Source: Apostichopus japonicus
Lineage: Eukaryota; Echinodermata; Holothuroidea; Aspidochirotida; Stichopodidae
Length of the DNA stretch: 64,000 bases
NCBI RefSeq assembly: GCF_037975245.1
Contig: NC_092580.1
Coordinates: 16,442,001 to 16,506,000 of the forward strand
Direction of reading: 5' to 3'
The position numbers and the translations under genes are program-made. Of this stretch, positions 34,018 to 60,342 are shown piece by piece. Within the stretch, counting starts at the first letter, position 1. The number at the start of each line of letters is the position of its first letter. The notes below the pieces were generated by a model. The model was not told the origin of the DNA. It worked only from the letters and a program-made list of their open reading frames with translations, and ran no database searches.

Positions 34018-37000
34018 GCATGCTTTCTCCAGCCAGCATCCACTGCAACTACTTTTACCATGCACCAGGAACTGTCAACAGAAACCTTCACCAGTCCCGA
34101 GCCATTAAACAAGCATCGAGTTCTGCAATCTTCCCAGACCCACACACCAACCGACTGACCAACCAGCCTTTACTATATTTAACTAAATATATGCGAGTGA
34201 AATGTGTATTCTTTCATACTTCTATTTGATATATGTTGCTATTTATTTAAGGCCAACATTAACAATTAAGTTACGTCGACCAACATTTCACCGTCCATAA
34301 TAAACCATCTGCCATTTCTTCATCATCTATCATCCACTATCCACCATTATTAAATGTTGATTGAATTTTTTTTTAATAGTTTGACATACAGAATTTATAT
34401 TATTATATCATCTGATATATATTTCATCATGATTTTCTAATTGATATTTGATCGACTTTGCAGGTTTTGTCCAACTCCAAAGCCACTAACATCCTCTACC
34501 ATCCACCAAAGAACCAGTCACGAACAACCAACCCACAAGCCTTAAAAATTGTTTGTATGTATTCAACATTTTCTATTCAGATTTTGTTGAATGTTTTAAG
34601 TACATATACATTCTATTTAAAATATTGAATTGTGTGCCATCCAACAGTAGTACATGATTTTTAATAGTTTTATATGTATTTCTTTCCTGGGTGTTTTAAA
34701 TTTGATAATATTGTATCATTTGATATAGTAAGTTTGATGCACTCTTGCGTTTTGTCTTTATTGCACGCTTTTCCCAGTTAGCATCCACTGTAACTGTGTC
34801 GGCTTCCCAACATTTACAGTCACCAAACAAGATAGTCTTCAACCAGTCCCTAACCACAACTGAACCAACCAGCATTGTGTCACCAGACGTGCAGGCATTT
34901 CCCAGCCACCACCTACTACAACTACTTTTACCATACACCAAGCACTTCCACCATTCACCAGCCATCAAAAAAGCAACAAGTCTGCGAACATCCACAACCC
35001 ACCAACCAACTGACTGGTGAACCAATCAGCCTTTTACCACCATAGACCGTTGCTGCAGACTTTAATGAGTATTCTTTCATACTTTTAAATGAAATATTGT
35101 CGTTTTGTTAGGACCATTATCAACATTCCACTTCCCCCCACCAATCATCTACCACCCATTCATCCATAATCAACTATATGTCATCCATCATTTACAATCT
35201 TCTATGCACCATTATTAAATGTTGTATGAATTTTGTTTTTAAAGTCTGACATGCATTTTATGAGTGTTTTATATTATTGCAACATCTGATATATAATTCA
35301 TCATGATTTTCTAATTGATATTTGATCGACTTTGCAGGTTTTCTCCAGCTAAAAAGCCACTAACATCCTCTACCATCCACCAAAGAACCAGTCACCAACA
35401 ACCAACCCACAAGCCTTCAAAATTGTTTGTATGTATTAAACATTTTCTATTCAGATTTTGTTGAATGTTTTAAAAACATATACTTTCTATTTAAAATATG
35501 GTAGGTTTGTGTCATCCAACATTAATACATGCTTTTAAATAGTTTTATATGCATTTCTTTCCGTAGTGTTTCAAATTTGATATTATTGCATCATTTGATA
35601 TAGGAAGTTTGATCACTCTTTTGTATTTTTTATATTGCAGGCTTTCCCCAACTAGGTTGACTTCCCACCAGTAACAGCCACCAAACAAGATAGTCTTCAA
35701 CCAGTCCCTAACCAAAACTGAACCAACCCAGCATTGTGTCACCAGACGTGCAGGCGTTTCCCAGCCACCACCTACTGCAACTACTTTTACCATACACCAA
35801 GCACTTCCACCATTCACCAGCCATCAAAAAAGCAACAAGTCTGCGAACATCCACAACCCACCAAACAACTGACTGGCGAACCAATCAGCCTTTTACCACC
35901 ATAGACCGTTGCTGCAGACTTTAATGAGTATTCTTTCATACTTTTAAATGAAATATTGTCGTTTTGTTAGGACCATTATCAACATTCCACTTCCCCCCAC
36001 CAATCATCTACCACCCATTCATCCATAATCAACTATATGTCATCCATCATTTACAATCTTCTATGCACCATTATTAAATGTTGTATGAATTTTGTTTTTA
36101 AAGTCTGACATGCATTTTATGAGTGTTTTATATTATTGCAACATCTGATATATAATTCATCATGATTTTCTAATTGATATTTGATCGACTTTGCAGGTTT
36201 TCTCCAGCTAAAAAGCCACTAACATCCTCTACCATCCACCAAAGAACCAGTCACCAACAACCAACCCACAAGCCTTCAAAATTGTTTGTATGTATTAAAC
36301 ATTTTCTATTCAGATTTTGTTGAATGTTTTAAAAACATATACTTTCTATTTAAAATATGGTAGGTTTGTGTCATCCAACATTAATACATGCTTTTAAATA
36401 GTTTTATATGCATTTCTTTCCGTAGTGTTTCAAATTTGATATTATTGCATCATTTGATATAGGAAGTTTGATCACTCTTTTGTATTTTTTATATTGCAGG
36501 CTTTCCCCAACTAGGTTGACTTCCCACCAGTAACAGCCACCAAACAAGATAGTCTTCAACCAGTCCCTAACCAAAACTGAACCAACCCAGCATTGTGTCA
36601 CCAGACGTGCAGGCGTTTCCCAGCCACCACCTACTGCAACTACTTTTACCATACACCAAGCACTTCCACCATTCACCAGCCATCAAAAAAGCAACAAGTC
36701 TGCGAACATCCACAACCCACCAACCAACTGATTGGCGAACCAATCAGCCTTTTACCACCATAGACTGTTGCTGCAGACTTTAATGAGTATATTCTTTCAT
36801 ACTTTTAAATGAAATATTGTCGTTTTGTTAGGACCATTATCAACATTCCACTTCCCCCACCAATCATCTACCATTCATTCATCCATAATCAACTATCTGT
36901 CATCCATCATTTACCATCTTCTATGCACCATTATTAAATGTTGTATGAATTTTGTTTTTAAATAGTCTGACATACATTTTATGTGGGTTTTATATTATTA

Positions 37001-40000
37001 CAACATCTGATATATAATTCATGATGATTTTCTAGTTGATATTTGATCGACTTTGCAGGTTTTCTCCAGCTAAAAAGCCACTAACATCCTCTACCATCCA
37101 CCAAAGAACCAGGCACCAAAAACCAACCCACAAGTGCCTTTAAAATTGTTTGTATGTATTAAACATTTTTATTCAGATTTTGTTGAATGTTTTAAAAACA
37201 TATACTTTCTATTTAAAGTATTGTTGGAAATTTGTGTCATCCAACATTAATACAAGTTGTTAAACAATTAAATTAGTAGTTCTTTTTGTAGTGTTTTAAA
37301 TTTGATAATATTGCATCATTTGATATAGGAAGTTTGATCACTCTTTTGTTTTTTCTATATTGCAGGCTTTCCCCAACTATGTTGACTTCCCACCAGTAAC
37401 AGCCACCAAACAAGAGTCTTCAACCAGTCCCTAACCACAACTGAACCAACCACCAGACGTGCAGGCATTCCCTAGCCACCACCTACTGCAACTACTTAAC
37501 CATACACCAGGCACTTCCACCATTCACCAGCCATCAAACAAGCAACAAGTCTGCGAACATCCACAACTAACCAATTGACTGGCGAACTAATCAGCCTTTT
37601 ACCACCATAGACCGTTGCTGCAGACTTAAATGAGTATTCTTTCATACTTCTGAATGGAATATTGTCGTTTTATTAGGACCATTATCAACATTCCACTTCC
37701 TCCCACCAATCATCACCATCCATTCATCCATAATCAACTATCTGTCATCCATCATTTACCATCTTCTATGCACCATTATTATATGTTGTATGAACTTTGT
37801 TTTTAAATAGTGTGACATACATTTTATGAGTTATATATTTTTACAACATCTGATATATAATTCATGATGATTTTCTAGTTGATATTTGTTCGACTTTGCA
37901 GGTTTTCTCCAGCTAAAAAGCCACTAATATCCTCTACCATCCACCAAAGAACCAGTCACCAAAAACCAACCCACAAGTGCCTTCAAAATTGTTTGTATGT
38001 ATTTAACATTTTTTATACAGATTTTGTTGAATGTTTTAAATACATATACTTTCTATTTAAAGTATTGTAGGTTTGTGTCATCCAACATTAATACATGCTG
38101 TTAAATAGTTAAATATGTAGTTCTTTTTGTAGTGTTTTAAATTTGATAATATTGCATCATTTGATATAGGAAGTTTGATCACTCTTTTGTATTTTCTATA
38201 TTGCAAGCTTTCCTCAACTATGTTGACTTCCCACCAGTAACAGCCACCAAACAAGATAGTCTTCAACCAGTCCCTAACCACAACTGAACCAACCAGCATT
38301 GTGTCACCAGACGTGCAGGCATTCCACAGCTACCACCTACTGCAACTTCTTTTACCATACACCAAGCACTTCCACCATTCACCAGCCATCGAACAAGCAA
38401 CAAGTCTGCGAACATCCACAACCCACCCACCAACTGACTGGCAAACCAATCGGCCTTTTACCACCAAAGACCGTTGCTGCAGACTTTAATGAGTATTCTT
38501 TCATACTTTTAAATGAAATATTGTCGTTTTGTTAGGACCATTATCAACATTCCACTTCCCCCAACCAATCATCTACCATCCATTCATCCATCATCCATAA
38601 TCAACTATCTGTCATCTGTCATTTACAATCTTCTATGCACCATTATTAAATGTTGTATGAATTTTGTTTTTAAATAGTCTGATGTACATTTTATGAGTGT
38701 TTTATGCTATTACAACATCAGATATATAATTCATTATGATTTTCTAGTTGATATTTGATCGACTTTGCAGGTTTTCTCCAGCTAAAAAGCCACTAACATC
38801 CTCTACCATCCACCAAAGAACCAGTCACCAACAACCAACCCACAAGTGCCTTCAAAATTGCTTGTATGTATTTAACATTTTTTATTCAGATTTTGTTGAA
38901 TGTTTTAAATACATATACTTTCTATTTAAAGTATTGTAGGTTTGTGTCATCCAACATTAATACATGCTTTATATGTATTCTTTTTGTAGTGTTTCAAATT
39001 TGACATTATTGCATCATTTGATATAGGAAGTTTGATCACTCTTTTGTATTTTCTATATTGCAGGCTTTCCGCAACTATGTTGACTTCCCACCAGTAACAG
39101 CCACCAAACAAGATAGTCTTCAACCAGTCCCTAACCACAACTGAACCAACCAGCATTGTGTCACCAGACATGCAGGCATTCCACAGCCACCACCTACTGC
39201 AACTACTTTTACCATACACCACGCACTTCCACCATTCACCAGCCATCGAACAAGCAACAAGTCTGCGAACATCCACTACCCACCAACCGACTGGCAAACC
39301 AATCAGCCTTTTACCACCATAGACCGTTGCTGCAGACTTTAATGAGTATTTTTTCATACTTCTGAATGAAATATTGTTGTTTTATTACGACCATTATCAA
39401 CATTCCACTTCCCCCCACCATTGATCTACCATTCATTCATCCATCATCCATAACCAACTATATGTCATCCATCATTTACCATCTTCTATGCACCATTATT
39501 ATATGTTGTATGAACTTTGTTTTTAAATAGTCTGACATACATTTTATGAGTGTTTTATATTATTACAACATCTGATATATAATTCATCATGATTTTCTAG
39601 TTGATATTTGATCGACTTTGCAGGTTTTCTCCAGCTAAAAAGCCACTAACATCCCTACCATCGACCAAAGAACCAGGCACCAAAAACCAACCCACAAGTG
39701 CCTTCAAAATTGCTTGTATGTATTAAACATTTTCTATTCAGATTTTGTTGAATGTTTTACATACATATACTTTCTATTTGAGGTTTGTGTCATCCAACAT
39801 TAATACATGCTTTTAAATAGTTTTATATGTATTCTTTTTGTAGTGTTTCAAATTTGACATTATTGCATCATTTGATATAGGAAGTTTGATCACTCTTTTG
39901 TATTTTCTATATTGCAGGCTTTCCCCAACTATGTTGACTTCCCACCAGTGACAGCCACCAAACAAGATAGTCTTCAACCAGTCCCTAACCACAACTGAAC

Positions 40001-41445
40001 CAACCAGCATTGTGTCACCAGACGTGCAGGCATTCCACAGCTACCACCTACTGCAACTTCTTTTACCATACACCAAGCACTTCCACCATTCACCAGCCAT
40101 CGAACAAGCAACAAGTCTGCGAACATCCACAACCCACCCACCAACTGACTGGCAAACCAATCGGCCTTTTACCACCAAAGACCGTTGCTGCAGACTTTAA
40201 TGAGTATTCTTTCATACTTCTAAATGAAATATTGTCGTTTATTAGGACCATTATCAACATTCCACTTCCCCCAACCATCCATTCATCCATCATCCATAAT
40301 CAACTATCTGTCATCCATCATTTACAATCTTCTATGCACCATTATTAAATGTTGTATGAACTTTGTTTTTAAATAGTTTGACATACATTTTATGAGTGTT
40401 TTATATTATTACAACATCTGATATATAATTCATGATGATTTTCTAGTTGATATTTGATCGACTTTGCAGTTTTTCTCCAGCTAAAAAGCCACTAACATCC
40501 TCTACCATCGACCAAAGAACCAGTCGCCAACAACCAACCCACAAGTGCCTTCAAAATTGTTTGTATGTATTAAACATTTTTTTTCAGATTTTGTTGAATG
40601 TTTTATATACATATACTTTCTATTTAAAGTATTGTAGGTTTGTGTCATCCAACATTAATACATGCTGTAAAATAGTTAAATATGTAGTTCTTTTTGTAGT
40701 GTTTTAAATTTGATATTATTGCATCATTTGATATAGGAAGTTTGATCACTCTTTTGTATTTTCTATATTGCAGGCTTTCCCCAACTATGTTGACTTCCCA
40801 CCAGTAACAGCCACCAAACAAAATAGTCTTCAGCCAGTTCCTAACCAAAACTGAACCAACTAGCATTGTGTCACCAGACATGCAGGTGTTTCCCAGCCAC
40901 CACCTACTGCAACTTCTTTTACCATACACCAGGCACTTCCACCATTCACCAGCCATCAAACAAGCAACAAGTCTGCGAACATCCACAACCCACCAACCAA
41001 TTGACTGGTGAACCAATCAGCCTTTTACCACCATAGACCGTTGCTGCAGACTTTAATGAGTATTCTTTCATACTTTTAAATGAAATATTGTCGTTTTGTT
41101 AGGACCATTATCAACATTCCACTTCCCCCCACCAATCATCTACCACCCATTCATCCATAATCAACTATATGTCATCCATCATTTACAATCTTCTATGCAC
41201 CATTATTAAATGTTGTATGAATTTTGTTTTTAAAGTCTGACATGCATTTTATGAGTGTTTTATATTATTGCAACATCTGATGTATAATTCATCATGATTT
41301 TCTAATTGATATTTGATCGACTTTGCAGGTTTTCTCCAGCTAAAAAGCCACTAACATCCGCTACCATCGACCAAAGAACCAGTCGCCAACAACCAACCCA
41401 CAAGTGCCTTCAAAATTGTTTGTATGTATTAAACATTTTCTCTTG
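34018..41445. repeat. ~857-bp tandem repeat array, ~8.6 copies
   Basis: The anchor GTTGACTTCCCACCAGTAAC (one copy has GTGAC) recurs at 35655, 36514, 37381, 38222, 39079, 39933 and 40789 (spacing 841-867). Diverged copies occupy 34018-35600, and the array ends in mid-unit at about 41445. Each unit alternates two CCA-rich segments with AT-rich spacers. Both CCA-rich segments are preceded by acceptor-like tracts (GATCGACTTTGCAG and TTTCTATATTGCAG), and the shorter is followed by GTATGT. Copies 2 and 3 are almost identical over about 860 bp, and 41050-41330 matches them again, indicating recent homogenisation. Reading frames on either strand (60-136 codons) vary between copies and are not convincing genes. 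Confidence 0.95.
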
Positions 41446-43215: not shown

Positions 43216-44590
43216 TGTTTGTATGAAGTATACTTCTTGAATGTTTGTTTGTTCGATGTTTGTTTCTTTGTTTCCATGTTTGTCCAATGTTTGTTTTTTC
43301 TGTTCGATGTTTGTTTCTTTGTTCAATGTTTGTTTGTTTCTTTGTTCAATGTTTGTTTCTTTGTTCAATGTTTGTTTCTTTGTTCCATGTTTGTTTCTTT
43401 GTTTTGATGTTTGTTTCGATGTTTGTTTGTCCCATGTTTGTTTGTTTGTCTAATGTTTGTTTCTTTTGTTTCGATGTTTGTGTTTTTTTGTTCGATGTTT
43501 GTTTCTTTGTCCAATGTTTGTTTGTTTGTTTTGATATATGTCTGTCCGATGTTTGTTTGTTTGTCCAATGTTTGTTTGTCCAATGTTTGTTTCTTTGTTC
43601 CATGTTTGTTTGTTTGTTTTGATGTTTGTTTGTCCGATGTTTGTTTCTTTTGTTCGATGTTTGTTTTTTTTTGTTCGATGTTTGTTTCTTTGTCCAATGT
43701 TTGTTTCTTTGTTCCATGTTTTGATGTTTGTTTGTCCGATGTTTGTTTCTTTTGTTTTGTTGTTTGTTTTTTTTTGTTTCTTTGTTCCATGTTTGTTTGT
43801 TTTGATGTTTGTTTTGTTTTGTTCGATGTTTGTTTGTTTTTTGTCCAATGTTTGTTTCTTTGTTCCATGTTTGTTTGTTTGTTTGTTTTGATGTTTGTTT
43901 TGTTTTGTTCGATGTTTGTTTTTTTTTGTTCGATGTTTGTTTCTTTGTCCAATGTTTGTTTCTTTGTTTCTTTGTTCCATGTTTGTTTGTTTGTTTGTTT
44001 TGATGTTTGTTTTGTTTTGTTCGATGTTTGTTTTTTTTTGTTCGATGTTTGTTTCTTTGTCCAATGTTTGTTTCTTTGTTCCATGTTTGTTTGTTTGTTT
44101 TGATGTTTGTTTTGTTTTGTTCGATGTTTTTTTTTTTTGTTCGATGTTTGTTTCTTTGTCCAATGTTTGTTTCTTTGTTCCATGTTTGTTTGTTTGTTTT
44201 GATGTTTGTTTTTTTTTGTTCGATGTTTGTTTCTTTGTCCAATGTTTGTTTCTTTGTTCCATGTTTGTTTGTTTGTTTTGATGTTTGTTTTGTTTTGTTC
44301 GATGTTTGTTTTTTTTTGTTCGATGTTTGTTTCTTTGTCCAATGTTTGTTTCTTTGTTTTGATGTTTGTTTTTTTTGTTCGATGTTTGTTTTTTTTGTTC
44401 GATGTTTGTTTTTTTTTTGTTCGATGTTTGATGTTTGTTTGTTTGTTTCTTTTGTTTCATTGTTTCTTTGTTCAATGTTTGTTTCGATGTTTTTTGTTTT
44501 GTTTCTTTGTTTCTTTGTTTGTCCGATGTGTGTTTGTTTGTCCGATGTGTGTGCCTGTTTCGATGTTTGTTTGTTTGTTTGTCTGTTTCA
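43216..44590. repeat. TTTGTTCGATG minisatellite array
   Basis: Built from 15-16-bp variants of TTTGTTCGATGTTTG (also TTTGTCCAATG and TTTGTTCCATG), arranged in higher-order blocks of about 100-115 bp that contain TTTGTTTTGATG. Most units lack stops in several frames, so frames of 117-341 codons exist on both strands (Phe/Cys/Val-rich on plus, Lys/Asn/Gln/Thr-rich on minus). These are consequences of composition. Confidence 0.95.
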
Positions 44591-44838
44591 GGGAGGGTGG
44601 GGACTGGGGGGTCGGGACGAGGGACGGAGGTCAGGGCGGGAGGTCGGTCGGTACAGGAGGTCGGGTCGGGACGGGAAGGTCGGGATGGGGAGGTCGTGTC
44701 AGGACGGGGAGGTCGGGTCAGGACGAGCGGGAGGTCGGTACAGGAGGTCGGGTCGGGTAGGTCGGCTCGGGATGGGGATGTCGGGACGGGGAGGTCGGGT
44801 CGGGACGAGGGACGGAGGTCAGGGTGGGAGGTCGTCCT
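44591..44838. repeat. G-rich GGACGGGGAGGTCGG array
   Basis: About 10-12 imperfect units of roughly 20 bp around GACGGGGAGGTCGGGTC. It is strongly G-biased on the plus strand and quadruplex-prone. It sits exactly between the T/G array and the TCTTCT array. Confidence 0.9.
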
Positions 44839-47800
44839 GCTGTCTGAAAAAACAACTCTAAAAAAATTTAAAAAAACATCAAATACATTTCACCCCCCCT
44901 TCCACATCCCCCGCCCGGCGTCTTCTTCTGTTGTCCGTCTTCTTCTCCGTCCTGCTGTCTGAAATACATTCCCCCTTCCACTTCTTCTGTGCTCCGTCAT
45001 CTTCTTTTGTGCTCCGTCTTCTTCTGTGCTCCGTCTTCTTCTGTTGTCCTGCTGTCTGAAAAAACAACTCTAAAAAAAACACAAAAAAAACCAACATATC
45101 AAATACATTCCCCCTTCCACTTCCCCTGCCCCAGCCCGTCTTCTTCTGTGCTCCGTCTTCTTCTGTGCTCCGTCTTCTTCTGTGCTCCGTCTTCTTCTGT
45201 CTGAAAAAAAAACTATAAAAAAAGTTAAAACATAATACATTAATACATAACCCACCACCCCTGCCCCCGTCCGTCTTCTTCTGTGCTTCGTCTTCTGTGC
45301 TCCGTCTTCTTCTGTACTCCATCTTCTTCTGTGCTCCGTCTTCTTCCGTGCTCCGTCTTCTTCCGTGCTCCGTCTTCTTCTGTGCTCCTTCTTCTTCTGT
45401 TGTCCGTCTTCTTCTGTCTGAAAAAACAACTAAAAAAAAAAAAATAAAACATCAAATACATTTCACCCCCCTCCCACTTCCCCTGCCCCCGCCCGTCTTC
45501 TTCTGTGCTCCATCTTCTTCTGTGCTCCGTCTTCTTCTGTGCTCCGTCTTCTTCTGTGCTCCGTCTTCTTCTGTTGTCCTTCTTCTTCTGTCCTCCTGAT
45601 GTCTGAAAAAAAAACTATAAAAAAAGTTAAAACATAATACATTAATACATAACCCACAACCCCTGCCCCCGTCCGTCTTCTTCTGTGCTCCGTCTTCTTC
45701 TGTGCTCTGTCTTCTTCCGTGCTCCGTCTTCTTCCGTGCTCTGTCTTCTTCTGTTGTCCGTCTTCTTCTTCTCCGTCCTGCTGTCTGAAAAAAAGAAAAA
45801 CATATCAAATACATTCCCCCTTCCACTTCCCCTGTCCCCGCCCGTCTTCTTCTGTGCTCCGTCATCTTCTTTTGTGCTCCGTCTTCTTCTGTGCTCCGTC
45901 TTCTTCTGTTGTCCGTCTTCTTCTGTTGTCCTGCTGTCTGAAAAAACAACTCTAAAAAAAACACAAAAAAAACCAACATATCAAATACATTCCCCCCTTC
46001 CACTTCCCCTGCCCCAGCCCGTCTTCTTCTGTGCTCCGTCTTCTTCTGTGCTCCGTCTTCTTCTGTCTGAAAAAAAAACTATAAAAAAAGTTAAAACATA
46101 ATACATTAATACATAACCCACCACCCCTGCCCCCGTCCGTCTTCTTCTGTGCTCCGTCTTCTTCTGTGCTCCGTTATCTTCCGGGTCTTCTTCCGTGCTC
46201 CGTCTTCTTCCGTGCTCTGTCTTCTTCCGTGCTCCGTCTTCTTCTGTTGTCCGTCTTCTTCTGTCTGTAAAAACAACTCTAAAAAAAAAAATAATAAAAC
46301 ATCAAATACATTTCACTCCCCCTTCCACTTCCCCTGCCCCCGCCCGTCTTCTTCTGTGCTCCGTCTTCTTCTGTGCTCCGTCTTCTTCTGTGCTCTGTCT
46401 TCTTCTGTGTTCCGTCTTCTTTTGTGCTCCGTCTTCTTCTGTGCTCCGTCTTCTTCTGTTGTCCGTCTTCTTCTGTCCTCCTGATGTCTAAAAAAAAACT
46501 ATAAAAAAGTTAAAACATAATACATTAATACATAACCCACCAGCCCTGCCCCCGTCCGTCCGTCTTCTTCTGTGCTCCGTCTTCTTCTGTGCTCCGTCTT
46601 CTTCTGTGCTACGTCTTTTTCTGTGCTCCGTCTTCTTCTGTGCTCTGTCTTCTTCTGTTGTCCGTCTTCTTCTGTCCTCCTGATGTCTGAAAAAAAACTA
46701 TAAAAAAAGTTAAAACATAATACATTAATACATAACCCACCACCCCTGCCCCCGTCTGTCTTCTTCTGTGCTCCGTCTTCTTCCGTGCTCCGTCTTCTTC
46801 CGTGCTCCGTCTTCTTCCGTGCTCCGTCTTCTTCCGTGCTCCGTCTTCTTCCGTGCTCCGTCTTCTTCTGTGCTCCGTTTTCTTCTGTTGTCCGTCTTCT
46901 TCTGTCTGAAAAAACAACTCTAAAAAAAAAATAATAAAACATCAAATACATTTCACCCCCCCTTCCACTTCCCCTGCCCCCGCCCGTCTTCTTCTGTGCT
47001 CCGTCTTCTTCTGTGCTCCGTCTTCTTCTGTGCTCCGTCTTCTTCTGTGCTCCGTCTTCTTCTGTGCTCCGTCTTCTTCTGTTGTCCTTCTTCTTCTGTC
47101 CTCCTGATGTCTGATAAAAAAACCTATAAAAAAAGTTAAAACATAATACATTAATACATAACCCACCACCCCTGCCCCCGTCCGTCTTCTTCTGTGCTCC
47201 GTCTTCTTCTGTGCTCCCTCTTCTTCTGTGCTCCGTCTTCTTCTGTGCTCCGTCTTCTGCTGTGCTACGTCTTCTTCTGTTTTCCGTCTTCTTCTGTTGT
47301 CCGTCTTCTTCTGTCCTCCTGATGTCTGCAAAAAAACTATAAAAAAAGTTAAAACATAATACATTAATACATAACCCACCACCCCTGCCCCCGTCCGTCT
47401 TCTTCTGTGCTCCGTCTTCTTCTGTGCTCCGTCTTCTTCTGTTGTTCGTCTTTTTCTGTGCTCCGTCTTCTTCTGTGCTCCGTCTTCTTCTGTGCTCCGT
47501 CTTCTTCTGTGCTCCGTCTTCTTCTGTGCTCCGTCTTCTTCTGTACTCCGTCTTCTTCTGTTGTCCGTCTTCTTCTGTGTTCCGTCTTCTTCTGTGCTCC
47601 GCTTCTTCTGTCCTCCTGATGTCTGATTAAAAAAACTAGAAAAAAAGTTAATATATATGAAATACATAACCAAGCATCCCTGCCCCAGTCTGTCTTCTTT
47701 TGTGCTCTGTCTTCTTTTGTGCTTCGTCTTCTTCTGTGCTCCCTCTTCTTCTGTGCTCCATCTTCTTCTGTGCTCCGTCTTCTTCTGTGGTCCGTCTTCT

Positions 47801-49200
47801 TCTGTGCTCCGTCTTCTTCTGTGCTCCATCTTCTTCTGTGCTCCGTCTTCTTTTGTGCTTCATCTTCTTCTGTGCTCTGTCTTCTTCTGTTGTCCGTCTT
47901 CTTCTGTGTTCCGTCTTCTTCTGTGCTCCGCTTCTTCTGTCCTCCTGATGTCTGATTAAAAAAACTAGAAAAAAAGTTAATATATATGAAATACATAACC
48001 AAGCATCCCTGCCCCAGTCTGTCTTCTTCTGTGCTCCCTCTTCTTCTGTGCTCCGTCTTCTTCTGTCCCCCTGATGTCTGAAAAAAACTTTAGAAAAAAT
48101 TTAAAACATATGAAATAACATAACCCACCACCCCTGCTCCGTCTTCTTCTGTGCTCTTGTCTTCTTTTGTGCTCCGTTTTCTTCTGTTGTCCGTCTTCTT
48201 CTTTTTTCCGTCTTCTTCAGTCCTCCTGTTGTCTGAAAAAAAACTCTAGAAAAACAGTTAAAACATATGAAGTTCATAACCCAGACACCCCTGCCCACGT
48301 CCGTCTTCTCCTGTGCTCCGTCTTCTTCTGTTATCCGTCTTCTTCTGTGTTCCGTCTTCTTCTGTGTTCCGTCTTCTTCTGTGTTCTGTCTTCTTCTGTC
48401 CTCCTGATGTCTAAAAAAACAACTCTAGAAAAAAGTTAAACATATCAAAAACATAATCCATCACCCCTGCCCCGGTCCGTCTTCTTCTGTGCTACGTCTT
48501 CTTCTGTCCAACTGATGTCTGAAAGAAAAACTCTAGAGAAATAGTTAAAACAAATGAAATACATAACCCACCACCCCTACCTCCGTCCATCTTCTTCTGT
48601 GCTCCGTCTTCTTCTGTGCTCCGTCTTCTTCTGTGCTCCGTCTTCTTCTGTGCTCCGTCTTCTTCTGTTGTCCGTCTTCTTCTGTGTTCCGTCTTCTTCT
48701 GAATTCCGTCTTCTTCTGTGTTCCATCTCCTTCTGTCCTGCTGATGTCTGAAAGAACAACTCTAGAGAAATAGTTAAAACAAATGAAATACATAACCCAC
48801 CACCCCTACCTCCATCTTCTTCTGTGCTCCGTCTTCTTCTGTGCTCTGTCTTCTTCTGTTGTCCGTCTTCTTCTGTGTTCTGTGTTCCATCTCCTGTCCT
48901 GCTGATGTCTGAAAGAACAACTCTAGAGAAATAGTTAACACAAATGAAATACATTACCCACCACCCCTGCCCCCGTCCATCTTCTTCTGTGCTCCGTCTT
49001 TATCTGTGTTCCGTCTTCTTCTGTCCTCCTGATGTCTGAAAAAACAACTCTAGAAAAAAAGTTTAAACATATCAAATACATAACCCACCACCCCTGCCCT
49101 GGTCCGTCTTCTTCTGTGTTCTGTCTTCTTCTGTGTTCCGTCTTCTTCTGTGCTCCTGATGTCTAAAAGAACAACTCTAAAAAATCATCAAACAAAACCC
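44839..49200 (-). repeat. 17-bp minisatellite in ~25 exon/intron-like modules
   Basis: Plus-strand unit GTGCTCCGTCTTCTTCT (17 bp), 2-12 units per module. Modules are separated by AT-rich spacers of about 50-70 bp that begin GTCTGAAAAA and end ATAACCCACCACCCCTGCC. Read on the minus strand, each spacer looks like a mini-intron: GTGG|GTTATG donor-like start, TTTTAAC branch-like motif, T-tract, then TCAG, followed by ACATCAGGAGGACAG. Because 3 x 17 = 51, minus frames cycle through a 17-residue charged repeat and stay open for up to 295 codons. No frame is maintained consistently across spacers, so I do not call a gene. Confidence 0.92.
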
Positions 49201-49830
49201 ACCCACCAACCTGTAGTCAGTTGTCTTCATCAATAATCTTAAGTCGTCGTGCTCGTGGTACTGCTTCATTACAATCTTCTTCGGATCTGAAACATATCAC
49301 ATACATCGAATTAGTCACCCACCAACCCCTCTGTCTTCTTCTGTGGCCTTGGCCCATCTTTGTCCAACATCTTCATCCAATCTGCTTTCGTCTTTATCCA
49401 TCTTCTGATGTGTTATGGTCATCTTCTTATGTGTTATGGTCCTCTTCTTATGTGTTATGGATTATCCATCTTCTTATGTGTTATCTTAAAGAATAAGGCT
49501 AAAAAGACATTTAAAACATACCAAATACAATGCATAACCCCACACCGAGGGACCCCTCCCAGTCTTCCTCTGTGGCCTTGGCCTGTTGTCGTCCAGCCTC
49601 TTCATCCATTTGCTTTTGTCTTTTTTCCGATTTTTTACGTTGTCGTTGTCCTCCTGTGTCATAATCCATCTTCCGGATCTGACAGAATAAGGCTAGGAAA
49701 CAGTTAATAATTACCCAACCACCAACCAGGGGTCCTCTCTCCATCTTCTATGCCCGGAGTTGTCGTTGTCCAGAGTCTTTATCCATCTTCTTTCGTCGTC
49801 TTCTGTGAGTGACTGATGACCCAGCACATA
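49201..49830 (-). repeat. relic exon-like modules at start of segmental duplicate 1
   Basis: The minus strand shows a 133-bp segment (49678 to 49546) preceded by TTCTGTCAG and followed by G|GTGTGG. Its first frame is open throughout (IRKMDYDTGGQRQRKKSEK and onward). A partner segment lies at about 49740-49830. The matching copy in the second duplicate has the same 133-bp length. These resemble the unexpanded ancestor of the 17-bp modules. Confidence 0.7.
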
Positions 49831-52800
49831 TAGGTTCACCTATCTACAAATGAAAATGGTGGGATGGCTTGACAAGTCAAAAATATATATACTTTTTGGT
49901 TTGCAATTATGTTCTGTGAGAGCTCTGAAGTTTTGAATAAAATGTATTTAGAAGTCACAATAAACTTGTTTTCCTATTTTCTCAAGTTAGCAATTTAGTA
50001 ATAACAGCCTCAATCATGACGTGCAATATTTAGCACGAATAAACGAAGGAAAGAAGGAGAGCGCTGAACCACAATCAATGTACGTTTTACCAAATACTAG
50101 CAAAAATGTACAGTACTACCCAGTAGTTTAGGAAAGTCCTAAATCGAGTTGGAAAAATAATACTTTTACATTCTTCCAATGCTATGCTCCCCTAAATCGC
50201 TGTTGGAAATAATGATCATGACGAGGGATGGTACTTGCTGCTTATGGCAGTGTTGATATTGATATTTAGTCCAGCTTAAAATACTGCCATGACAGGCTTA
50301 AATTTTTAGTACTAATAATTTCTTAGAAAACAGGAGGTATTACAGGTGAAATTTAATCCTTCCAAAAAAGTTAGATTTAATAAACATATGTATAAAGAAT
50401 CTGTTTTTCATAATAAGTTATTGAAATTTTTACACGAAAGAAAAAATGTAGATGAAGCACTGAAATTTCAACAGTAAATAGTCAACAGTAAAATTACACA
50501 ACTAGGCTACAAGAACAGCTCATCAATAGTTGGCCAACCCTTGAGGGATGCTGATGGTCAGTGATGTTTTAAAGAAACAACCTTGATTTTCCGAGGTGGG
50601 GGGGGGGGGCAGGGTGTTGGATTCCTATAAGTGTAAAGGGGGAGTGACACCAGGTAGATCCACTCCATGTTCCAATTTAAGCAGTTATTTCCATTACACA
50701 CAGGAATTTTAGCAGGCTAGGCTACTAGTTGCCCTACAACTATACTAACCTATACAAGTCTTTGTAATGACAGTAGCATGCGTAAGCACTCTCACGTCCA
50801 CCAAAGTTAATGCAAAGGAGGTGGCTCAATTGCCTGTCAGGGGAACCAAACATAAAGAGTACTGTACTGTTTGTGCACAACCTTGCAAACATATAGTTGT
50901 AGAACTAACTTATAGTTTCAATGCAACATTCGTCAGAATATTGGGAAGGGGGGGGGGCAGTGAGAGGACCTGGCATTCAACGACTCTACAAGTAGGACAC
51001 ATACCGGCTTCATAGCACCTTCATTTACCCCATATCCCTCCATAAAGTGTCATATCACTACTTAATTCAATTGATTTACTATTTTGAAAACGACAACAAA
51101 GAAGATCAGACCTCACCGTGAACTTGAAAGAGCTGTTCTTGAAGAGTGCAGAAAATTGAAGACTGTAAACCCAAGAAGTACCAACATGATTGGAGTCATT
51201 CAGATGGCTATGACAACTATGTCAATGTACTAATACTGATTTTACTCTTATGAATTCATTAGAGCTTACCAATGTTTTACTGACTTTATGTCTGGCACTC
51301 TCTATACACAGGAGAGTTGGAAGGGGGGGGGACTAAAACTAAAAGTTCCTTTTCTCTTACTGTAAGTCATATTGTAGGTTTACAATATACTGCAGTAATA
51401 ATAGTCGATGAACATAAACTTTTGGGAAGACCATCATCCCCCACCGGTTTTATACCCCCATCCACTTCCTGATATAGCTGACAAGACCGAACGAAAATTA
51501 GTGTTAAGATATGAAGATATGCTTCTAGTACCAGACATTGATTTACCCATACATTTATGTAGTCCATGTAAAAGAACCTTTTTTGCTGCAAAATGTCTTA
51601 GGTTTTGGAAAGTTCCTTCTGCTCTTTTTAATTAAATATATTATTATGCAGCTATAAGAATCTCTGAGTGGACGTGTCTTTTTTGTACAAATGCAGATTA
51701 TTGTTGACATATTCGCAGTTTATTCGACAGAGCATTATAAACTGTTTTTTTTCAGTATCAAAGACTAGAAACAAAATGAGGTGTACAATTATTAAATGGA
51801 AGGTTGAGTGAATTTCAGATTTTGCACAAACACAGCCAAAATTGGGTAAAACTGTGAAACAATGAGAAATTTGGACCTACAGTATAGTGTTGTTCATAAA
51901 TTAAAATATTAATTCATCTGTATATCTTTACTTTGGGAGACTAGACAAATTACTACACTAGAAGGCCCACAAACGTTAATACTGACTTACAGACACAGAA
52001 AACAAGGATCTAGGGATACTTTGAAATATACGAACACATTATCAGACACTAGTTATCTCTCTAAATGAAAAGTTTTCTATTCCTCACCCAACACTAAAGT
52101 AAAAGTAACTTGTCGAAAGAGATAGTAGTATGTTAAATTTGGAAAATATACGTTACCTACCTTAACTGCATATTAAATAGCGCAACTCCTTCCTCGGTAA
52201 GAACCATGATAAAAACTTAATTTCCCGCCAAGGGCGTCTGTCTGGGCTTCTGTTGTGTTGTTATCTGCATTACCTTTCATCAAAGTCATTCACCCATGGA
52301 GCAGAAACCACTGATGGCAATTAGCTGTGCCTATAGTTTGTTGTCGTTCAAATGGGGAGCTGGTAAATGAGCAGCTTACCGATTCATCCGATCCTAAAAT
52401 AGGGTAAAAATATGAAACAATTAGAAATTTTGTGATCTAATTTTGCAAATAAATTAGAATTTAGAACATTTCTTTTTTATAACAATATGAATTAGGATAT
52501 GTTTACTTTGCGGAACAAGAAAAATCACTTCACTGGAAGGGCCACAGAGGTAGCTACGTTACAACAAGGCTGACTTCATCCAGAAAAAGTACAGACTTCT
52601 TTGACAATGTACAATCACATCAGCATCACACTGCTTAATTCTGTACATGGAAACTTTTCTATCCCCAACTCGAAAGGAAAAGGAATAGTAATAGTTCCAG
52701 TTGTTGTTCAATCAGGGAGCTGGTAAATGAGCCAGTTTGCCAGTTTAATTCTATCCTGCTCTGCAAGTTATTGTGACCCGACGTTTTTAACATATTACTA

Positions 52801-53103: not shown

Positions 53104-56100
53104 TGTACCAACATCTGTACTGAGACACAAGGTGGTACACCTTGTGTACTGAAGCATAAAGGGGGCAACCAGTTTACAGGGTGCTAAGGTACACCAGGTG
53201 TACTCGAGCATACAGGGGTCAACCAATCAATAGGGTGCTAAGGTACACCCAGTGTACTGAAGCATGTAGGAGGCCACCGGTCTAGAATACAGGGGGAAAC
53301 CATGCAGTCTACAGGGGGCTAAGGTACACCCAGTTTAGTGAAGCATACAGGGGGCCACCGTTTTACAGGGTATTAAGGTACACCCTGTGCACTGAAGCAT
53401 ACAGGGGGCAACCAGTCAACAGGGTGCTAAGGTACACCCAGTGTTCTGAAGCATACAGGGAGTGACTGGTCTGGCAGACAGGGGGCAAACAGTCTAAAGA
53501 ATGCTAAGGTACACCTTGTGTACAGAAGCATACAGGGGGCAACCAATCTACAGGGAGCTAAAGTACACCCAGTGTCCTGAAGCATACAGGGGGCAACCAG
53601 TCTAAAGGGTGCTAAGCATAAAGTGGCTAACCAGTCTACAGGGTGCAAAAGTACACCTTGTGTACTGAAGCAGTCTAGAGGGTGCTAAGGTACATCCCAT
53701 GTACTGAAGCATACAGAGGGCCACCGGTCTATAGGGTGCTAAGGTACACCCTGTGTACTGAAGCATACAGGGGGCAACCAGTCTAGAGGGTGTAAGGTAT
53801 ATCCCATGTACTGAAGAATACATAGGGCAACCAGTCTACAGGGTGTTATGGGACATCCAATGTACTGAAGCATACAGGGGCAACCAGTCTACAGGGTGCT
53901 AAGGTACACCCTGTGTACTAAAGCATACAGGATGCCACCAGTCTAGGATACAGAGGGCAAAGAGTGCTAAGGTACTGTACACCCAATGTTCTGAAGCATA
54001 CAGGGGGCAACCAGTCTACAGGGGGCTTAGATACACCCTGTGTACTGAAGCATACAGGGGGCCACCGGCCTAGCATACAGGGGTCAACCAGTCTATAGGG
54101 TGCTAAGGTACACCCAGTGTCCTGTAGCATACAGGGTACAACTAGTCTAAAGCGTACTAAGGTACACCTTGTGTACTGAAGCATACAGAAGGCAACCAGT
54201 CTACAGGGTGCTAAGGTACACCCAGTGTTCTGAAGCATACAGGGAGTGACCGGTCTGGCAGACAGGGGGCAAACAGTCTAAAGAATGCTAAGGTACACCT
54301 TGTGTACAGAAGCATACAGGGGGCAACCAATCTACAGGGAGCTAAAGTACACCCAGTGTCCTGAAGCATACAGGGGGCAACCAGTCTAAAGGGTGCTAAG
54401 CATAAAGTGGCTAACCAGTCTACAGGGTGCAAAAGTACACCTTGTGTACTGAAGCAGTCTAGAGGGTGCTAAGGTACATCCCATGTACTGAAGCATACAG
54501 AGGGCCACCGGTCTATAGGGTGCTAAGGTACACCCTGTGTACTGAAGCATACAGGGGGCAACCAGTCTAGAGGGTGTAAGGTATATCCCATGTACTGAAG
54601 AATACATAGGGCAACCAGTCTACAGGGTGTTATGGGACATCCAATGTACTGAAGCATACAGGGGCAACCAGTCTACAGGGTGCTAAGGTACACCCTGTGT
54701 ACTAAAGCATACAGGATGCCACCAGTCTAGGATACAGAGGGCAAAGAGTGCTAAGGTACTGTACACCCAATGTTCTGAAGCATACAGGGGGCAACCAGTC
54801 TACAGGGGGCTTAGATACACCCTGTGTACTGAAGCATACAGGGGGCCACCGGCCTAGCATACAGGGGTCAACCAGTCTATAGGGTGCTAAGGTACACCCA
54901 GTGTCCTGTAGCATACAGGGTACAACTAGTCTAAAGCGTACTAAGGTACACCTTGTGTACTGAAGCATACAGAAGGCAACCAGTCTACAGGGTGCTAAGG
55001 TACACCCAGTGTTCTGAAGCATACAGGGAGTGACCGGTCTGGCAGACAGGGGGCAAACAGTCTAAAGAATGCTAAGGTACACCTTGTGTACAGAAGCATA
55101 CAGGGGGCAACCAATCTACAGGGAGCTAAAGTACACCCAGTGTCCTGAAGCATACAGGGGGCAACCAGTCTAAAGGGTGCTAAGCATAAAGTGGCTAACC
55201 AGTCTACAGGGTGCAAAAGTACACCTTGTGTACTGAAGCAAACAGGGTGCCATCGGTCTAGAATACAGGGGGCAACCAGTCTACAGAATAATAAGGTACA
55301 CCCAGTTTAGTGAAGCATACAGGGGGCCACAGGTTTACAGGGTGTTAAGGTTCACCCTGTGCACTGAAGCATACAGGGGGCAACCAGTATACAGGGTGCT
55401 AAGGTACACCTGGTGTACTGAAGCATACAGGGGGCCACCAGTCTACAATGTGATAAGGTACACCCAGTGTCCTGTAGCATACAGGGTACAACTAGTCTAA
55501 AGCGTACTAAGGTACACCTTGTGTACTGAAGCATACAGAAGGCAACCAGTCTACAGGGTGCTAAGGTCAACCTTGTGTACTGAAGCATAAAGGAGGTAAC
55601 CAGTCAACAAAGTGCTATGGTACTGTACACCCTGTGTAATGAAGCAGACAGTGGGCAACCAGTCTACATGGGGCTAAGGTACACCTAGTTTACTGTACCA
55701 GACAGGGGGCAACCAGTCTACAGGGTGCTAAGGTACACCCAGTTCAGTGAAGCATACAGGGGGCCACCGGTTTACAGGGTGTTCAGGTACACCCTTAGCA
55801 CTGAAGAATACAGGGAGTAACCAGTATACAGGGTGCTAAGGTACACCCGGTGTTCTGAAGCATACAGAGGGCAACCAGTCTACAGGGTGCTAAGGTACAC
55901 CCAGGGTGCAAAGGGGGTAACCAACCTACATGGTGCAAAAGTACACCTAGTATACTGAAGCATACAGGGGTCAACCAGTTCTACAGGGTGTGAAGGTACA
56001 CCCAGTGTATTAAAATACACAGGGGTCAACCAGTTCTACAGGGTGCGAAGGTACACCTTCTGTACTGAAACAAACAGGGGGCAACCAATCTACAGGATGC

Positions 56101-57285
56101 CAAGGTACACCCAGTGTCCTGAAGCATACAGGGGGCAACCAGTCTAAAAGGTGCTAAGGTACACCTTGTGTACTGAAGCATATATGGGGTAACTATTCTA
56201 CAGGTCCGTGCAAAAGTACACCTTGTGTACTGAAGCATACAGGGGGTAACCAGTCTACAGGGTGCTAAGGTACACCCAGTTTACAGAAGCACACTGGGGG
56301 CAACCAGTCTACAGGGTGCTAAGCTACACCTTGTGTACTGAAGCATACAGGGGCCATGGGTCTAGGGTACAGGGGGCAACCTGCATACAGGGTCTTAAGG
56401 TACACCTTATGCACTGAAGCATACAGGGGGCAACCTGTTTACAGGGTGCTAAGGTACACCCGTTGTACTGAAGCATAAAGGGGGTAACCAGTCTACAGGG
56501 TGCTTAGGTACATGGCCAGTTTACTGAAGCAAACAGGGGGCAACCAGTCTACAGTGTGCTAAGGTACACCTTGTGTACTGAAGGAGACAGGGGGCAACCA
56601 GTCTACAGGTACACCCAGTGTACTGGAGAATACAGGGGGCAACCATTCAATGGGGTGCGAAGTGCACCCAGTGTTATGGAGCACACAGGGGGCCAAAGGT
56701 CTACAAGGTGCTAAGGTACACCCAGTGTCCTGAAGCATACAGGGCCAACGAGTGTAAAGGTACACCTTATGTACTGAATCGTAAAGGGGGTAACCAGTGT
56801 AGAGGGTGCAAAAGTACAAAAGGGTACAGTGAACTGTAGCATACAGGGGGCCACCGGTCTAGAATACAGGGGTCAACCAGTCTACAGGGGGCTAAGGTAC
56901 ACCCAGTTAAGTGGAGCACACAGGGGCCAATGGTTTACAGGGTGTTAAGGTACACCCTGTGAACTGATGCATACAGGGGGCATCCTGTATACAGGGTGTT
57001 AAGGTACACCTTGTATACTGAATCATAAAATGGTTCACCAGTCTACAGGTAGCAAAAGTACACCAAGTGTACTGAAGCATACAGGGGGCAACCAGTTTAC
57101 AGGGTGCTAAGGTACACCAGGTCTACTGAAGCATACAGGGGTCAACCAGTCCACAGTGTGCTAAGGTACACCTTGTGTACTGAAGCAGACAGGGGTCAAC
57201 CAGTCTACAAGCATACAGGGAACAACCAGTCTAAAGGGTGTTAAGGTACACCTTGTGTACTGAATCATAAATGGGGTAACCAGTC
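53104..57285. repeat. 54-bp satellite array 1 (CTAAGGTACACC type)
   Basis: Consensus unit CTAAGGTACACCCAGTGTAC, then TGAAGCATACAGGGGGCAAC, then CAGTCTACAGGGTG (54 bp), with many variants and some hybrid units. On the minus strand it reads as an 18-residue Cys-containing repeat (CMLQYTGCTLAPC), repeatedly interrupted by indels. A 784-bp higher-order repeat lies inside it. Confidence 0.96.
53431..55235. repeat. 784-bp higher-order repeat, ~2.3 copies
   Basis: 53431-54214 and 54215-54998 are almost base-for-base identical (I noted GACTGG versus GACCGG), and a third copy runs to about 55235. Each contains about 14 diverged 54-bp units. The near-identity contrasts with the divergence of the units inside. 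Confidence 0.95.
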
Positions 57286-57841
57286 TACAGGAAGACTACA
57301 AAGACATTTAAAACATACCAATTACATTGTATTACACACCCAGCAACGTCCCCCCCCCCGCCCCCGTCTTCTTCTGTCGCCTTAGCTCGTTGTCATCCAG
57401 CATCTCCATCCATCTGCTTCCGTCTTTATCCATCTTCTAACGTTGTCATAGTCATCTTGCATTTTAATCCATCTTTTGGATCTGAAAGAATAAGGATAGG
57501 GAAACAGTTAAAACATACCAAATACATTGCATAACCAACCGAGGGACCCCTCCCAGTCTTCCTCTGTGGCCTTGGCCTGTTGTCGTCCAGCATCTTCATC
57601 CATTTGCTTTTGTCTTTTTTCCGATTTCTTACGTTGTCGTTGTCCTCCTGCGTCATAATCCATCTTCCGGATCTGAGAATAAAAACAATAAAAAGAATAA
57701 GGCTAGGAAACAGTTAATAGCATTACCCAACCACCAACCTGGGGTCCTGGAGTGTGTGGAGTTGTCGTTGTCCAGAGTCTTTATCCATCTTCTTACGTCG
57801 TCTTCTGTGAGTGAATGATGACCCAGCACATATAGGTTCAC
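57286..57841 (-). repeat. relic exon-like modules at start of segmental duplicate 2
   Basis: On the minus strand three modules follow one another. The first ends CCCCAG|GTTGG (about 57747). A 133-bp module follows (57672 to 57540), after TTCTCAG and before G|GTTGG. The third starts ATCCAAAAGATGG (about 57480) after TTCTTTCAG. Spacers carry TATTAAC or TTTTAAC before the pyrimidine tract. A purine-rich end (CAGAAGAAGACGGGGGCGGG) on the third module closely matches the 17-bp array unit at 44.8-49.2 kb. Confidence 0.7.
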
Positions 57842-60342
57842 CTATCTACAAATGAAAATGGTGGGACGGCTTGACAAGTCAAAAATATAAATACTTTTTG
57901 GTTGCAATTATGTTCTGTGAGACCTTTGAAGTTTTGAATAAAATGTATTTAGAAGTCACAATAAACTTGTTTTCCTATTTTCTCAAGTTAGCAATTTAGT
58001 AATAACAGCCTCAATCATGACGTGCAATATTTAGCACGAACAAACGAAGGAAACAAGGAGAGCGCTGAACCACAATCAATGTACGTTTTACCAAATACTA
58101 GCAGAAATGTACAGTACTACCCAGTAGTTTAGGAAAGTCCTAAATCGAGTTGGAAAAAAATACTTTTACATTCTTCCAATGCTATGCTCCCCTAAATCGC
58201 TGTTGGAAATAATGATAATGACGAGGGATGGTACTTGCTGCTTATGGCAGTGTTGATATTGCTATTTAGTCCCGCTTAAAATACTGCCATAGGTAATGAC
58301 AGGCTTAAATTTTTAGTACTAATAATTTCTTAGAAAACAGGGGGTATTACAGGTGAAATTTAATCCTTCCAAAAAAGTTAGATTTAATAAACATATGTAT
58401 AAAGAATCTGTTTTTTATATTAATAAGTTATTGAAATTTTAACACGAAAGAAGATATGTAGATGAAGCACTGAAATTTCAACAGTAAATAGTCAACAGTA
58501 AAATTACACAACTAGGCTACAAGAACAGCTCATCAATAGTTGGCCAACCCTTGAGGGATGCTGATGGTCAGTGATGTTTTAAAGAAACAACCTTGATTTT
58601 CCGAGGTGGGGGGGGGCAGGGTGTTGTGTTACTTTAGGTGTAAAGGGGGAGTGACACCGGGTAGATCCACTCCATGTTCCATTTAAGCAGTTATTTCCAT
58701 TACACACAGGAATTTTAGCAGGCTAGGCTACTAGTTGCCCTACAACTATACTAACCTATACAAGTCTTTTGTAATGACAGTAGCATGCGTAAGCACTCTC
58801 ACATCCACCAAAGTTACTGCAAAGGAGGTGGCTCAATTGCCTGTCAGGGGAACCAAACATAAAGAGTAACATACTGTTTGTGCACAACCTTGCAAACATA
58901 TAGTTGTAGAACTAACTTATAGTTTCAATGCAACATTCGTCAGAATATTGGGAGGGGGGTGGGGAGTGGGGGCGGTGAGAGGACCTGGCATTCAACGACT
59001 CTACAATTAGGACACATACCGGCTTCATAACACCTTCATTTACCCCATATCCCTCCGTACAGTGTCATAACACTACTTAAAGCAATTGATTTACTATTTT
59101 GAAAACGACAACAAAGAAGATCAGACCTCACCGTGAACTTGAAAGAGCTGTTCTTGAAGAGTGCAGAAAATTGAGGACTGTAAACCCAAGAAGTACCAAC
59201 ATGATTGGAGTCATTCAGATGGCTATGAAAACTATTTCAATGTACTAATAATGATTTTACTCTGATGAATAGATTAGAGCTTATCAATGTTTTACTGACT
59301 ATATGTCTGGCACTCTCTATACACAGGAGAGTTGGAAGGGGGGGGGGGGACTAAAAAACTAAAAATTCCTTTTCTCTTACTGTAAGTCATATTGTAGGTT
59401 TACCTTAACTGCATATTAAATAGTGCAACTCCTTCCTCCGTAAGAGCCATGATAAAAAACATTATTTCCCGCTAAGGGCGTCTGTCTGGGCTTCTGTTGT
59501 GTTGTTATCTGCATTACCTTTCATCAAAGTATTCACCCATGGAGCAGAATCCACTGATGGCAATTAGCTGTGCCTATAGTTTGTTGTCGTTCAAATGGGG
59601 AGCTGGTAAATGAGCAGCATACCGATTCATCTGATCCTAAAATAGGGTAAAAATATGAAACAATTAGAAATTTTGTGACCTAATTTTGCAAATAAATCAG
59701 AACATTTTTTTTTTTTATAACAATATGAATTAGGATATGTTTACTTTGCGGAACAAGAAAATCACTTCACTGGGAGGGCCACAGAGGTACAGTAGTACGT
59801 TACAACATGGCCCTGGCAGTCATCCAGAAAGAGTACAGGCTACTTTGACAATGTACAAACACATTTGCTTAATGCTTAATTCTGCTTAATGCTTAATTCT
59901 GTACATGGAAACTTTTCTATCCCCAACTCGAAAGGAAAAGGAACTTGTCGTGAGGAATATTGAGGAATAGTAATAGTTCCAGTTGTTGTTCAATCAGGGA
60001 GCTGGTAAATGAGCCAGTTTGCCAGTTTAATTCTATCCTGCTCTGCACGTTATTGTGACCCGACGTTTTTAACATATTACTACACTATAAACACATTCAG
60101 CATTCCGCATATCAGGATGACTTTAGCCAAGAATTGGGTTACATTTAACACATTTATCACCATGTTTGATTTTCGTACTACTGTAGGCCCCTGAGCTTGA
60201 GTTTTTGAATGACCTTAAATAATAATGATCATAAAAAACATTTAGACCCTATTTAATTACTTTATCTTCTTATCCTTCTTATCGAGATATTTTGAATCGA
60301 ATTTGGATATATTTCACATAATAATGACTTCTAACCTGCTTA
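57842..60342. repeat. segmental duplicate 2, low-copy part
   Basis: Collinear with 49831-53083. It lacks the 775-bp segment and has small changes elsewhere (for example a longer G-tract at about 59338). It is interrupted at 60350 by a hAT insertion and resumes at 61444. No genes are recognised. Confidence 0.93.

Follow-up and report, generated by a model that had tools for sequence, protein, structure and literature searches.

Layout of the array in the window

The window analysed here is a stretch of 64,000 nucleotides from the holothurian Apostichopus japonicus (contig NC_092580.1, here called C20, positions 16442001-16506000), and it was compared with a genome of 671,581,487 bases on 35 contigs. 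Its minus strand carries a tandem array in which GA-rich blocks made of 17-bp units alternate with AT-rich, intron-shaped spacers, and which an earlier note on this DNA had described as about 25 exon and mini-intron modules. We read the minus strand of 44.84-49.83 kb in full, and extracted and aligned the spacers. The results showed 25 spacer/GA-block modules between 44.84 and 49.54 kb, which bears out the coordinates, strand and approximate number given before. The proposed order within the module was also found, with a GA-rich block of 17-bp units followed by a G-rich boundary, an AT-rich spacer, a T-tract and AG, as was the variable copy number of the 17-bp unit, which by a rough count runs from ~2 to 15 cores per block.

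The claim that every module carries identical signals was overstated, as GTTATG, TTTTAAC and CAG occur together in 9/25 spacers. Taken singly, GTTATG is present in 15, TTTTAAC in 10 and TTAAC in 14 of the 25; the spacer ends in CAG in 22 modules and in AG in all 25. There are 21 distinct spacers, and seven modules form a second class (class B, GTGGAAGGGGG...(GTGA)AATGTATTTGAT...) that has neither GTTATG nor TTTTAAC. Since these modules are mutual copies, their splice signals do not amount to 25 independent observations. We also trained a hidden Markov model (HMM) on 61 spacers from loci other than the window and applied it to the 64 kb. With E values up to 10 accepted, it gave 29 matches, and 15 of these had E < 1e-3; every match lies on the minus strand, within 44.84-49.73 or 57.29-57.74 kb, indicating that the array is more than a chance pattern. 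No known RNA family reached its gathering score in window 33-62 kb.

Duplication above the level of the 17-bp unit is visible within the array. Tandem Repeats Finder (TRF) detected, in addition to the 17-bp unit, a 329-bp higher-order repeat (Table 1), which is a recent duplication of a block plus its spacer, and ungapped 300-nt repeats at 94% and 96% identity point to duplication of whole multi-module segments. The unexpanded modules that the earlier note had reported at 49.3-49.8 and 57.3-57.8 kb do exist; they are not independent of each other, because both belong to one 2.1-kb segmental duplication whose copies are 90.0% identical over 2,172 aligned columns, and their common boundaries are explained by this shared ancestry. 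The 571 bp of 49830-50400 have two occurrences in the genome, itself included.

Table 1. Positions of the array, its modules and its duplicated parts in the window
Feature	Position	Strand	Basis or remark
Whole array, ~25 modules of GA-rich 17-bp-unit block and AT-rich intron-shaped spacer	44839..49830	-	Matched by the HMM of spacers from other loci
Class B spacer starts	46956, 46316, 45995, 45819, 45466, 45113, 44912	-	Spacer alignment
Class A spacer, example (GTTATG, TTTTAAC, TTTCAG)	46067..46119	-	Intron-like score 23.2, joint best of the array with 45253-45201
Class B spacer, example (GTGAAATG, without GTTATG and TTTTAAC)	46265..46316	-	Poor donor and branch score
Unexpanded old-type modules, 5' end of the array	49287..49807	-	HMM matches 49730-49671 (E 2.6e-4), 49540-49483 (E 4.1e-6) and 49327-49289 (E 8.9, not significant)
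Second copy of the unexpanded modules	57291..57806	-	HMM E 0.0045, 2.3e-10 and 0.0078; within the 2.1-kb duplication; a 54-bp satellite comes directly after it
Segmental duplication, copy 1 (5' flank and first modules)	49290..51405	.	Sequence comparison
Segmental duplication, copy 2	57311..59424	.	Sequence comparison
Higher-order repeat of 329 bp, two copies, 94% matches	47394..48066	-	TRF; spacers 48009 and 47680 identical

A dispersed family of composite tandem repeats

A 281-bp query from the unexpanded stretch gave 29 matches in the genome, mostly to its spacer, and each of the nine matched places fetched first (9/9) carries arrays of this module, confined to one strand. The unit of this family, which we call M, is ~120-200 bp long: its purine-rich block is followed, across a G-rich junction, by an AT-rich spacer of 55-65 nt that resembles a short spliceosomal intron. 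A typical unit reads TTTTTTCAG, the purine-rich block ATGCAGAAGAAGATGGATTAAGACG...CCACCAGAAGAAGAGGGGG..TCCC, and then GG^GT(T/A)AGTGGGTGGG(T/C)TATGTATTTGATATGTT(T/C)TAACTGTTTTTCTAGCCTTGTTTTTTCAG, where the caret marks the putative donor boundary. Units elsewhere are more intron-shaped than those of the window, with GG^GTAAGT or GTTAGT, TTYTAAC, a pyrimidine tract and TTTCAG. A 26-mer of the M spacer with up to 2 mismatches gave 1,632 genome matches (598 forward and 1,034 reverse; reversed control 0), and a 40-mer with up to 3 mismatches gave 539 (229 + 310; control 0). Arrays were read on seven contigs (C3, C4, C8, C13, C14, C19 and C20); on C4, spacer matches begin at 12.0707 Mb and a flank match lies at 12.1138 Mb, ~43 kb that are given by these bounds and not by reading through the interior. 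The copies stand head to tail, have majority sequences specific to each array and occur at several loci, as in complex satellite DNA. Given the HMM built from other loci and the matches across the genome, the window array is a derived member of a family rather than an isolated object. A narrow check of the open-access literature found no description of this family.

We also compared the strands for motifs of four G runs (G-quadruplex type). In the nine arrays tested (L001, L002, L003, L006, L012, L014, L015, L017 and L018) the motif recurs on the block strand and is absent from the opposite one, with 62 clusters in L012 (79 modules), 41 in L014 (43), 40 in L018 (44) and 15 in L002 (37); it is nearly absent from the window array (1 cluster). 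We suggest that strand asymmetry of this kind, in repeats rich in G, may favour unequal exchange.

The 17-bp expansion is nearly confined to the window locus. Allowing up to 3 mismatches, the 17-bp dimer has 95 overlapping matches in the genome, 93 of them in the window array and 2 in the L015 region. A related 17-mer is present in two copies per block in L001; L015, at C20:16.85 Mb, mostly has two to three copies, with ~six in one block; blocks of the window reach ~15 by a rough count. In each of these three arrays, most or all of the mapped modules no longer have GT where the family donor stands. Whether these arrays are spliced or not, they display steps by which a minisatellite arises inside a larger repeat.

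Considered together, these results lead us to favour, with moderate confidence, the view that the window array is a locus-specific, minisatellite-swollen member of the dispersed composite tandem-repeat family M, with little in it to suggest present maintenance by splicing, and nothing to suggest maintenance by coding. The family would probably have arisen by tandem duplication of an exon-plus-short-intron-like unit, and an origin from a real exon-intron unit is likely. Its spread would have proceeded by tandem amplification, together with duplication of larger segments at part of the loci, as their shared flanks show. In the branch leading to the window, a 17-bp piece of the block would have been duplicated repeatedly, with L015 representing an intermediate state. 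The higher-order repeats suggest that unequal exchange or conversion of whole modules would keep the spacers alike while the 17-bp copy number drifts.

Splice-like signals and coding capacity

We scored splice sites with rough weights against 300 dinucleotide shuffles per segment, in 13 hand-chosen segments that serve as illustrations. The score was reached by 0 shuffles in L002 and L015, 1 in L012, 4 in L006 and in L017, 5 in L008, 8 in L001, 12 in L009 and 19 in L014. Within the window, two stretches of class A were reached by 0/300 and 11/300 shuffles, and two of class B by 35/300 and 164/300. L002, L012 and a good number of class A modules have convincing splice signals in the right order, which are absent from class B and the 49.3-kb module; 7/25 window modules score poorly as introns. 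The donor named in the earlier note, GG^GTTATG, is weak, scoring -0.4 in two modules where it is the best available, and GTG^GTGGGT, 4 nt upstream, scores 8.1. Among the 18 modules outside class B, the best donor ends in GTGGGT in 10, 8 of them as GTG^GTGGGT. As for the exon-intron unit proposed there, the intron shape was found, more convincingly in relatives elsewhere, and neither special conservation of the donor and branch sites nor coding was.

Conservation was measured in per-array alignments that extend past the acceptor and hold ~380 distinct modules from 16 arrays, the window being left out. Mean deviation over the spacer columns is 5.1%, and over the first block columns 3.7%. The donor GT deviates in 8.8% of cells (P 0.93 against random columns of the same base), the branch AA in 7.0% (same-base permutation P 0.91) and the acceptor AG in 2.1% (P 0.04 by the same permutation); the alternative donor GTGGGT (columns 14-15) deviates by 9.4% and 3.4%. 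Among 76 columns, in arrays intact in the majority, the donor G ranks 54th and T 60th, the branch A 72nd, and the acceptor A 7th and G 25th. The earlier note had expected donor, TTTTAAC and CAG to exceed the rest of the spacer in conservation and had named conservation no higher than array homogenisation would give among the findings that would count against its reading; donor and branch are indeed no better conserved, and the acceptor shows a weak excess (2.1% vs 5.1%).

Arrays differ in this respect. When gaps are counted as deviations, donor deviation is 9.5% in L019, 10.7% in L015, 22.5% in L020 and 37.5% in L004, and the branch A deviates by 29.4% in the array at C20:17.89 Mb. The majority acceptor of L020 is CAA. 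The family donor GT is kept in 209/262 mapped modules, including 76/77 in L012, 23/23 in L006 and 36/36 in L002; it is kept in 0/6 of L007, 2/25 of L001 and 0/11 of the window. Modules without the family donor have amplified too, and this counts against splicing as a maintaining force.

These observations bear on a second explanation, namely that transcription of the purine-rich strand of the M arrays, that of the window among them, followed by at least partial splicing, yields long repetitive noncoding RNAs of many mini-exons with 55-65-nt introns. We regard it as rather unlikely, although donor, branch, pyrimidine tract and acceptor are ordered and spaced above shuffles in five arrays (0-4/300 in L002, L012, L006, L017 and L015), the donor is nearly always kept in three, and the blocks are purine-rich, as splicing enhancers are. 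Against it stand the ordinary conservation of donor and branch, the loss of the family donor in L001, L007, L015 and the window, the poor donors of class B without TTTTAAC, and the CAA acceptor of L020. Moreover, no spliced junction of the ATGCAG-type blocks was found in the genome at 0-2 mismatches, a weak test in which the window subtype was not searched. The block-end/block-start pattern used in this test, which was aimed at spliced retrocopies, gave 4 matches, all with 3 mismatches and all reading as the acceptor TTTCCAG or TTCTCAG, hence no junction. Taken together, the sequence tests do not favour present splicing. We likewise regard it as rather unlikely that the M arrays of this echinoderm are giant noncoding transcription units, each with tens to hundreds of tandem mini-exons and 55-65-nt introns, in which splicing of redundant modules would be tolerated or used and a minisatellite would be growing in the exons of one member.

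We then considered a protein-coding gene made of tandem exons, using 322 blocks from 12 loci, 262 of them with a mapped donor. The 17-bp unit has no stops in any of the three frames, which accounts for minus-strand open stretches of 110-375 aa inside the window array (listed from 110 aa up), and each block of the short-block arrays has at least one open frame (L012 78/78, L001 69/69, L002 36/36, L006 23/23 and L003 19/19). Block lengths in L012 favour 0 modulo 3 (40/77). However, over the 262 blocks the lengths fall into 0/1/2 modulo 3 as 99/78/85, which is close to even, although the copies of one array are not independent of each other; the G tract of the block changes its length by single bases, and stops interrupt all frames in 42/42 blocks of L014 and 6/6 of L007. 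A protein of tandem exons is contradicted by these lengths and by the stops in long-block arrays, and we consider a coding gene of this kind very improbable.

Flanks, neighbouring sequences and known systems

The 3' flank of the array at L005 recurs at eight other main places with 81-92% identity over up to ~1 kb, and in the fetched sequence M modules adjoin it at 7/8 of these (L006, L007, L012, L014, L018, L019 and L020). L011 and L013 are 86.5% identical over 1,880 bp. On the 5' side, all five array starts read (L008, L009, L010, L016 and L017) lie inside a spacer, at different points, and four keep the AG, which would suit splicing. Their 5' flanks are unrelated, except that L010 and L016 share ~460 bp at 83%. 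Because the 5' flanks are mostly unrelated, no common promoter is visible among the loci compared, and this speaks against spliced transcripts. The flank of a second array type shares a 60-80-bp element with the M flank; in L022 this second array is a low-complexity TTTAC-type repeat.

The shared 3' flanks and the occurrence on seven contigs could also be explained if a mobile element contained the arrays, internally or at one end, and carried them to new places. Downstream of the L013 array, at L013:5240-5656 (+), there is a reverse transcriptase fragment (RVT_1, E 9.1e-8), which lies beyond the part of the flank common to L011. Coding-looking exons stand upstream of the L001 and L015 arrays on the same strand: those 5' of L001 (L026:2245-4990, minus strand) include one whose match to DUF1280 is weak and falls below the family cut-off (E 0.0024), and seven peptides of the upstream exons matched no Pfam family above cut-off. 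One exon near L015 has at least 58 genomic matches, of which those at C20 10.29 and 16.86 Mb adjoin the L001 and L015 arrays; another near L001 has only 3, which argues against the mobile element. A gene common to the upstream side of the arrays was considered and rejected, as among the matches listed for the L015-side exon none lies by the other arrays read. The unrelated 5' flanks at most loci compared, the differing array starts within the spacer and the position of the reverse transcriptase likewise disagree with a mobile element, and no terminal repeats or target-site duplications were established, target sites not having been examined. We therefore hold carriage by a mobile element to be improbable.

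Returning to the minisatellite-swollen member of family M, several points weigh against it as the full account. In the shuffle comparison the M unit resembles an intron more closely than its composition would lead one to expect, and L001 and L015, which lack the family donor, retain the alternative GG^GTGGGT scoring 8.6. Deviation is zero at donor GT, branch A and acceptor AG in L002 (26 rows) and L006 (19 rows), at donor and acceptor in L018, and at branch and acceptor in L017. Redundant modules of a noncoding RNA could lose splice sites at little selective cost, and with such tolerance the conservation test leaves room for splicing. The open frames of the short-block arrays and the length preference of L012, described above, count on the same side. 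In the flanks, L021, one of the nine flank places, has no M module in the 8 kb fetched, and AATAAA motifs occur in the shared 3' flank (visible in the L013 copy), which would fit the end of a transcript and, just as well, duplication of larger segments.

The surroundings in the window are also repetitive. On the 3' side of the minus-strand modules there are a short GC-rich GGTCGGGACGGGA array directly adjoining them (44609-44834) and a TGTT-rich array (43242-44588). A 54-bp satellite (GCATACAGGGGGCAACCAGTCTACAGGGTGCTAAGGTACACCC...) at 53134-57289 and 61486-64000 borders the second unexpanded copy. Positions 34300-41400 (+) hold tandem units of ~0.86 kb, about eight or nine by eye, strongly C-rich on the plus strand, whose blocks are preceded by acceptor-like TTTTCTATATTGCAG and CGACTTTGCAG; they may form a further array of exon-intron shape, in convergent orientation to the one studied here. 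Sequence related to it adjoins L009.

If M arrays were spliced, few natural transcripts would match their products in exon density, and the arrays would readily serve to test how a spliceosome handles hundreds of near-identical sites. If the arrays are unspliced, they show that an intron-shaped unit can become a satellite and still look gene-like to those who read sequence, which matters for the annotation of repeat-rich invertebrate genomes.

Among known systems, the micro-exon genes of schistosomes have many small tandem exons between introns, and those exons are symmetric and coding; M likewise has many small exon-like units in tandem, but keeps no frame. Introner elements are near-identical intron-like sequences found singly in many genes; M shares with them the many near-identical intron-like sequences per genome, whereas its spacers stand in tandem arrays with flanking blocks. 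Complex satellite DNA with higher-order repeats and nested minisatellites is, like M, tandem, homogenised within arrays, present at several loci, variable in internal copy number and subject to higher-order duplication; the M unit differs in being strand-asymmetric and intron-shaped, the four-run G motif included. In polyubiquitin genes, UBC-type tandem repeats that code for ubiquitin monomers are delimited by dual-specific splice sites (PMC10809524). In comparison with the repeats as described there, M blocks keep no frame and M splice sites are putative; what both have in common is that unit boundaries coincide with splice-like signals (PMC10809524).

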